Part shown: positions 8,017 through 36,468 of the stretch, in pieces
Numbering within the stretch: position 1 is the first letter of the stretch
Layout of the letters: every line of letters begins with the position of its first letter
DNA from: Candidatus Nomurabacteria bacterium RIFCSPLOWO2_01_FULL_33_24
Lineage (GTDB): Bacteria > Patescibacteriota > Minisyncoccia > Phycocordibacterales > MFUP01
Assembly: GCA_001785735.1 (NCBI GenBank)
Contig: MFUP01000008.1
Location: 1 to 46,086 of the forward strand
Length of the DNA stretch: 46,086 nt
Direction: 5' to 3'
Program-made: the position numbers and the translations under genes
Notes under the pieces: model-generated
Told to the model about the DNA's origin: nothing
The model's database searches: none
Seen by the model: only the letters and a program-made list of their open reading frames with translations

Positions 8017-8607
8017 CTACTTCAAATTATTTTCCTTTTGATATTTTTTCCAAAGCGGAAGCCAATCTTTCTTGTAAACAGCTAGCAAAACTTCATCACA
8101 ATAACTTCCTCTAACAAAAAATTGTTTTTTCCTTAACCCCTCAATTTGGTAACCGCATTTTTGATTATATTTTTGACTCCTTTTATTAAAATCATAAGCG
8201 GTTGAACAAATTTTTCTTAAATTAAGAGTATTGAAGGCATAATTTAATAAAATCATTTTAGCGTCAGTTCCATAACCTTTCCCCCAATATTCTTTTTCTC
8301 CAAGACAAGCTCCGGTAAAAGCTGTTTTACTAATCCAGTTAATTCTATGTAGGCCCATTAATCCTACTAAACGAGAATCTTCCCTTGTTTCTATTGAGAG
8401 GATAACATTATCGTTTTTACCCACCTGATTGTCAAACCAGTTTTCTTCGTCCCTTATTGTTTTAGGAAAGACTGAAGAAAGATAAAAACGAACCTCTGGG
8501 TCATTAAAAAAACGAGTAAATAATTCTAAATCTGTTTCTTTTCTAATAGGGCGAAGGATAACTTTATTTCCTTCTAGGAAAATAATTTTTTCTTTTTTTT
8601 CTTTCAT
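8017..8607 (-). CDS. GNAT-family N-acetyltransferase (RimJ/RimL-like)
   Basis: VILRPIRKETDLELFTRFFNDPEVR..., GKGYGTDAKMILLNYAFNTLNLRKICSTAYDFNKRSQKYNQKCGYQIEG. Confidence 0.85.
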   Translation of the reverse strand: MKEKKEKIIFLEGNKVILRPIRKETDLELFTRFFNDPEVRFYLSSVFPKTIRDEENWFDNQVGKNDNVILSIETREDSRLVGLMGLHRINWISKTAFTGACLGEKEYWGKGYGTDAKMILLNYAFNTLNLRKICSTAYDFNKRSQKYNQKCGYQIEGLRKKQFFVRGSYCDEVLLAVYKKDWLPLWKKYQKENNLK

Positions 8608-8630
8608 TTTTTAATTTTTAAATGAACAAA

Positions 8631-8663
8631 ATAAAAACTGCCCAATCTTAGGGCAGTTTTTAT
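8631..8663 (-). terminator. Intrinsic terminator/attenuator upstream of the GNAT gene
   Basis: Perfect 13-bp stem ATAAAAACTGCCC/GGGCAGTTTTTAT with a 7-nt loop and T-rich tail on the minus strand, between the 8800-8828 promoter and the GNAT ATG. Confidence 0.8.
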
Positions 8664-8682
8664 TTTTAAACCAAATAACTTG

Positions 8683-8790
8683 TTAATATCTTAAGGAGTT
8701 TTGAAAAACAAAAATTGCCCAAACATTTTGGAAAGGGGAGACTATCCCATTTAAGGCAGTTATTCTTTTTTCTAATCTTTGATTTTCCAT
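8683..8790 (-). CDS. Putative 35-aa leader peptide
   Basis: MENQRLEKRITALNGIVSPFQNVWAIFVFQNSLRY*; the ATG lies about 3 nt downstream of the predicted +1. Confidence 0.4.
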   Translation of the reverse strand: MENQRLEKRITALNGIVSPFQNVWAIFVFQNSLRY

Positions 8791-8799
8791 AATGCTTAT

Positions 8800-8828
8800 A
8801 TAATAACAATATACAATAAATTTGTCAA
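8800..8828 (-). promoter_or_regulatory. Strong sigma70-type promoter
   Basis: Minus strand TTGACA, 17 nt, TATTAT. Confidence 0.8.
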
Positions 8829-28456: not shown

Positions 28457-28611
28457 TTAAATCCTCCTTTGTTTGTATTCCGCTTTGCGCAGAATGGTTA
28501 TAAAATGTGTTAAAGAACTTCCTAATTATACCATACCTAATACTAATTTGTCAATCCTTTTGCCAATATCTTATTTAGATTTTATCTTTAAAATAGGCTA
28601 TAATTCCTAAT

Positions 28612-36383: not shown

Positions 36384-36468
36384 TTGAAATATTTTTAATA
36401 GCTTGCTATTCTGATTATATTGTGGTATTTTAAGTAATATATTATTTTGTTCATTAAAATTAATATTT

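Follow-up and report, generated by a model that had tools for sequence, protein, structure and literature searches.

A candidate ribosome-mediated transcription attenuator with a near-leaderless ORF ahead of GNAT and MFS genes in Patescibacteria

Patescibacteria are a vast group, mostly uncultured and with tiny genomes, and the locus examined here concerns the RNA leader in front of one of their genes. The window, that is, the whole stretch of DNA that was analysed, is a 46-kb contig of a Candidatus Nomurabacteria genome (398 kb, 67% complete), the nearest relatives of which among the genomes compared are other Patescibacteria, each in another family. Here a GNAT acetyltransferase gene (8017–8607, minus strand; 196 aa; Acetyltransf_3, E 6.9e-25) is preceded by a short transcription unit of its own, and leader and gene are both on the minus strand and diverge from pheS of the neighbouring pheST. 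The closest PDB structures to the GNAT protein are spermidine N1-acetyltransferases, and aminoglycoside N6'-acetyltransferases (AAC(6')) match more weakly. Near the contig start (112–531, plus strand) we noticed by eye a fragment resembling the N-terminus of an IS110-type transposase. We suggest, with a probability of roughly four in five, that the leader is a transcription attenuator governed by the ribosome, following the logic of Bacillus subtilis vmlR.

All parts of the leader are on the minus strand. A sigma-70 type promoter with an extended –10 (8800–8828; TTGACA at 8828–8823, TATTAT at 8805–8800, spacer of 17 nt, 11 of 12 consensus matches) has similar counterparts in most relatives and is followed by a near-leaderless ORF of 35 codons (8683–8790), the ATG of which begins at 8790, 9 nt past the –10, and the stop codon of which occupies 8685–8683; the predicted peptide is MENQRLEKRITALNGIVSPFQNVWAIFVFQNSLRY (35 aa). 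Four segments follow one another: S1 (AACTGCC, 8755–8761), the 5' arm of a putative anti-antiterminator, for which pairing with S2 may reach across leader nt 19–43; S2 (GGGCAATTTTT, 8710–8720), which lies within the ORF and has either S1 or S3 as its partner according to sequence comparison and folding; S3 (AAAAACTGCCC, 8651–8661), which by the same evidence is both the 5' arm of the terminator and the alternative partner of S2; and S4 (GGGCAGTTTTT, 8633–8643), the 3' arm of the terminator with the start of the T-run. The intrinsic terminator hairpin spans 8628–8666 (7-nt loop, –20.7 kcal/mol), and a boxA-like element, GTTCATTTAA (8618–8627), stands 3' of it. The promoter, the ORF and the four segments are thus where the first-pass annotation had placed them, as is a terminator before the GNAT gene, although its stem, given there as a perfect 13 bp, is longer, with 16 contiguous pairs. 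No Shine–Dalgarno sequence is visible ahead of the GNAT gene in the window, and since no second promoter was seen in the 20 nt between the terminator and the start codon, expression of the gene probably depends on readthrough.

Within the window itself, S2 and S3 pair at 10 of 11 positions, just as had been claimed, and their complementarity extends to about 23 nt per side and exceeds that of all 40 dinucleotide shuffles (z 8.2); the fold of the whole leader has a z of –3.05. When leader nt 1–45 are masked, the transcript up to S3 folds into the S2:S3 antiterminator, masking of S2 means that S2:S3 cannot form, and the full transcript folds into the terminator. The terminator and the antiterminator are mutually exclusive. 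The unmasked transcript up to S3 already has the antiterminator as its minimum-energy fold, and termination without translation therefore relies on kinetics. The proposal of four mutually competing segments holds from the window alone for S2:S3, whereas S1:S2 is there at chance level (duplex p 0.225; equalled by 4 of 60 shuffles) and emerges as significant only across relatives.

The comparison drew on 40 orthologous GNAT loci in other Patescibacteria (L029–L068), 38 of them non-redundant. In 35 of these 38 a terminator hairpin precedes the GNAT start codon, and the same order is shared: a strong promoter, an ATG, an ORF, S2 within the ORF, and a terminator directly 5' of the gene. An equivalent ORF, of 24–62 codons, occurs in all 35 leaders, always with S2 inside it, and its ATG usually lies 5–9 nt after the –10 of a TTGACA-N16/18-TANNNT promoter, close enough that, if transcription starts about 7 nt after the –10, these ORFs too would be leaderless or nearly so. 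Terminator stem sequences differ widely among the relatives, and each has an upstream S2 complementary to the 5' arm and loop. S2:S3 complementarity beats dinucleotide shuffles in 33 of the 35 leaders (at most 3 of 40 shuffles equal; mean z 4.4), as against a mean z of –0.08 by the identical measure for 117 unrelated terminators of the same loci, a difference that the choice of S2 register does not inflate because the controls were handled in the same way. Pairs within one locus number 12.0 of 15, compared with 7.0 of 15 when S2 and S3 are taken from different loci. In the S2:S3 helix double changes are found at 13 of 15 pairs (covariation score reached by 0 of 500 shuffles) and 83.6% of cells are paired, a percentage inflated by a register picked to maximise pairing; the S3:S4 stem covaries as well, with double changes at 8 of 10 pairs (0 of 500 shuffles). 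S1, which mostly falls within leader nt 8–45, pairs with S2 in the relatives, the duplexes of the GNAT set averaging –18.8 kcal/mol for own against –12.6 kcal/mol for mismatched partners, with a mean z of –3.6 in a second leader set. Conservation of the segments and of the leader ORF, which the first-pass annotation had named as a check, is therefore seen for S2:S3, for S1:S2 and for the ORF. On the evidence across relatives, a predicted S1:S2 anti-antiterminator is present, and a putatively translatable leader ORF with a promoter directly upstream covers both S1 and S2 and so overlaps the segment that decides the fold.

Moreover, the leader is not restricted to GNAT genes. A first covariance model, from terminator to boxA, had yielded no consensus structure, variable spacer and stem lengths having spoiled the MAFFT alignment; the working model (R2) comprises the terminator and its 3' tail and was run against 397 genomes of the order. 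About half of its best 30 hits lie before the orthologous GNAT gene and 14 before MFS transporters of about 390–410 aa; also among these 30, L167 precedes another GNAT and L149 looks degenerate. Extending the search to the class brought in four more GNAT and two more MFS loci, two further true loci (L185 and L186, one MFS and one GNAT) were found among weaker hits, and nothing outside the class was found in the phylum sample at E 1e-6. Hits below about 36 bits, among those read, proved to be generic terminators. At L149 and L184 the leader and its terminator are wholly or almost intact, and the next gene is not recognisable as GNAT or MFS. In all, 17 MFS loci with the leader were recorded among the R2 hits read, their leaders having promoter, ORF, S1, S2 and terminator as in the GNAT leaders and in most cases the boxA-like element. 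All 22 further leaders beat shuffles in S2:S3 pairing (mean z 6.1 versus –0.08 for the 117 control terminators), and the S2:S3 scores of the 35 and 22 leaders set against those controls, together with the retained S1:S2 pairing and leader ORF, give good support to the attenuation logic originally proposed. The nearest NCBIfam models to the pumps are Tet(40) and TetA(P), which they match at 75 bits where the cut-off is 800; judged by these matches, the pumps are relatives of Tet(40)/TetA(P) and not members. No relative of the MFS pump was found on viral contigs.

The boxA-like element, of GTTCWTT type, follows the terminator in 27 of the 35 orthologous GNAT leaders, and it matches the GTTCNTTGA- or CTTTGAMAA-type boxA-like sites of 16S rRNA leaders of related genomes (L139–L145). 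Elsewhere in the window, boxA-like TGTTCATTAA and AGTTCTTTAA are seen at 36448–36457 (plus strand) and 28510–28519 (minus strand), just 5' of two other genes, the latter directly following a TTGACA/TATAAT promoter. Such sites may belong generally to 5' leaders in the lineage. In L146–L148 (G107:C5), the 16S rRNA match falls into several pieces, which fits an rRNA gene interrupted by an insertion or intron. Just 3' of the T-run, GTTTAGC or a similar sequence forms a partial second copy of S2 (L034, L041, L043, L049, L052 and others); in many relatives this copy is able to pair with the loop of the terminator (GCTAAAC), with covariation judged by eye, possibly as a pseudoknot or as a hairpin formed after readthrough.

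We propose that RNA polymerase would start 0–3 nt before the leader ATG and that the ribosome would load at the 5' end of the transcript. During free translation S2 would at first be covered; once the ribosome had gone, S2 would re-pair with S1, S3:S4 would form and transcription would terminate short of the GNAT gene. Without a loaded ribosome, S1:S2 would form first and the outcome would again be termination. With a ribosome stalled in roughly codons 1–18, S1 would be covered and S2 accessible, so that the S2:S3 antiterminator would form and polymerase would read through into the GNAT gene. From the attenuation logic and the target genes, we infer that ribosome stalling would be the trigger, and that a translation-blocking drug is probably what causes it, the likely signal being an early elongation arrest by a ribosome-targeting compound. 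That translation stress or ribosome-targeting drugs would induce the gene gains in likelihood from the occurrence of this leader before pumps whose closest models are Tet(40)/TetA(P). In addition, because relatives use the leader for MFS efflux pumps as well, it may be a modular cassette through which detoxification or resistance-type genes are induced. To a fuller version of this proposal we give even odds: that of a single antibiotic-sensing cassette peculiar to Patescibacteria, with a near-leaderless ORF and four segments, set before the unrelated GNAT and MFS families, confined to one class in the phylum sample, and with a boxA-like site after the terminator coupling readthrough to Nus-type antitermination.

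The same four-segment logic would serve an attenuator that senses tRNA charging, as in trp/ilv leaders, and phenylalanine might be the amino acid in question, with Phe at codons 20, 27 and 29 of the window ORF and pheST divergent next door. Against this, the 28 leader peptides compared have no run of codons for one amino acid in common, and the leaders control GNAT and MFS pump genes instead of biosynthetic ones. The peptide is itself divergent, the window C-terminus FVFQNSL standing at the place of the relatives' (L/F)xFSRDxF, and what recurs, an Asn near codon 9 and a C-terminal FSRD or FSRG, coincides with S1 and S2 and is thus explicable by RNA pairing. We therefore consider amino-acid control improbable. 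When the leader peptide was considered as a possible conserved small protein, a search of 60 relatives gave no homologue with a useful E-value, and its many matches at E about 0.1 fell within one TrwB/TraD-type ATPase and were dismissed as chance. With the peptide poorly conserved outside the RNA-constrained segments, any drug-specific arrest motif is putative.

A conserved structured RNA ahead of resistance-type genes could also be a ligand-binding riboswitch or a protein-bound leader acting on the same terminator and antiterminator, with the ORF incidental. Yet at gathering score Rfam left the leader unmatched (tRNA and tmRNA were the only matches), an aptamer-like conserved core beyond the pairing segments is absent, and a near-leaderless ORF across S1 and S2 has been maintained, all of which makes this reading very improbable. 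Still less can be said for an ordinary terminator of a small independent gene, with the S1/S2 likeness due to chance and the GNAT gene expressed through leaky readthrough: the promoter–ORF–terminator unit is indeed complete, but the arm complementarity is kept with covariation in nearly all leaders and is absent at the 117 other terminators, and strong model hits precede GNAT or MFS genes.

Attenuation by a translating ribosome is a known kind of mechanism (vmlR, trp/ilv, toiL). For the vmlR leader of B. subtilis, the anti-antiterminator/antiterminator/terminator logic has been shown experimentally (PMC9226507); there too the uORF lies inside the anti-antiterminator hairpin, and an antibiotic-stalled ribosome leads to the antiterminator and to no intrinsic termination before the resistance gene. 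In contrast to the 24–62 codon near-leaderless uORF, GNAT/MFS targets and boxA-like element after the terminator described here, vmlR has a 3-codon uORF with a Shine–Dalgarno sequence, an SD-sequestering hairpin and an ABC-F target, and belongs to Firmicutes (PMC9226507). The trp/ilv attenuators (ilvB1 of M. tuberculosis, PMC13236596) likewise have a leader peptide, mutually exclusive terminator and antiterminator, and an outcome decided by ribosome position; they differ in their regulatory codon runs and biosynthetic targets. The comparable toiL uORF of topAI-yjhQP in E. coli senses several ribosome-targeting antibiotics, stalling at different places, but acts on translation and Rho-dependent termination and has no intrinsic terminator switch (PMC12121999). 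Leaderless attenuator ORFs are also known from mycobacteria: the polycysteine leaderless short ORFs (Canestrari 2020, as cited in PMC13236596) act as attenuators, although in that account they are cysteine-responsive, work through translation attenuation and belong to another phylum. Our literature search found no attenuator, translation-sensing or otherwise, described in Patescibacteria. Most likely new are the leader family itself, the phylum in which it occurs, its placement ahead of two gene families and the boxA-like element that follows its terminator.

Finally, the conserved leader would mark those Patescibacteria genes that answer to ribosome stress, and it makes the GNAT and MFS proteins candidates for inducible resistance factors. 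Because the sequence is compact, a laboratory strain or a purified transcription–translation system would suffice to test it, with no need to culture the organism.
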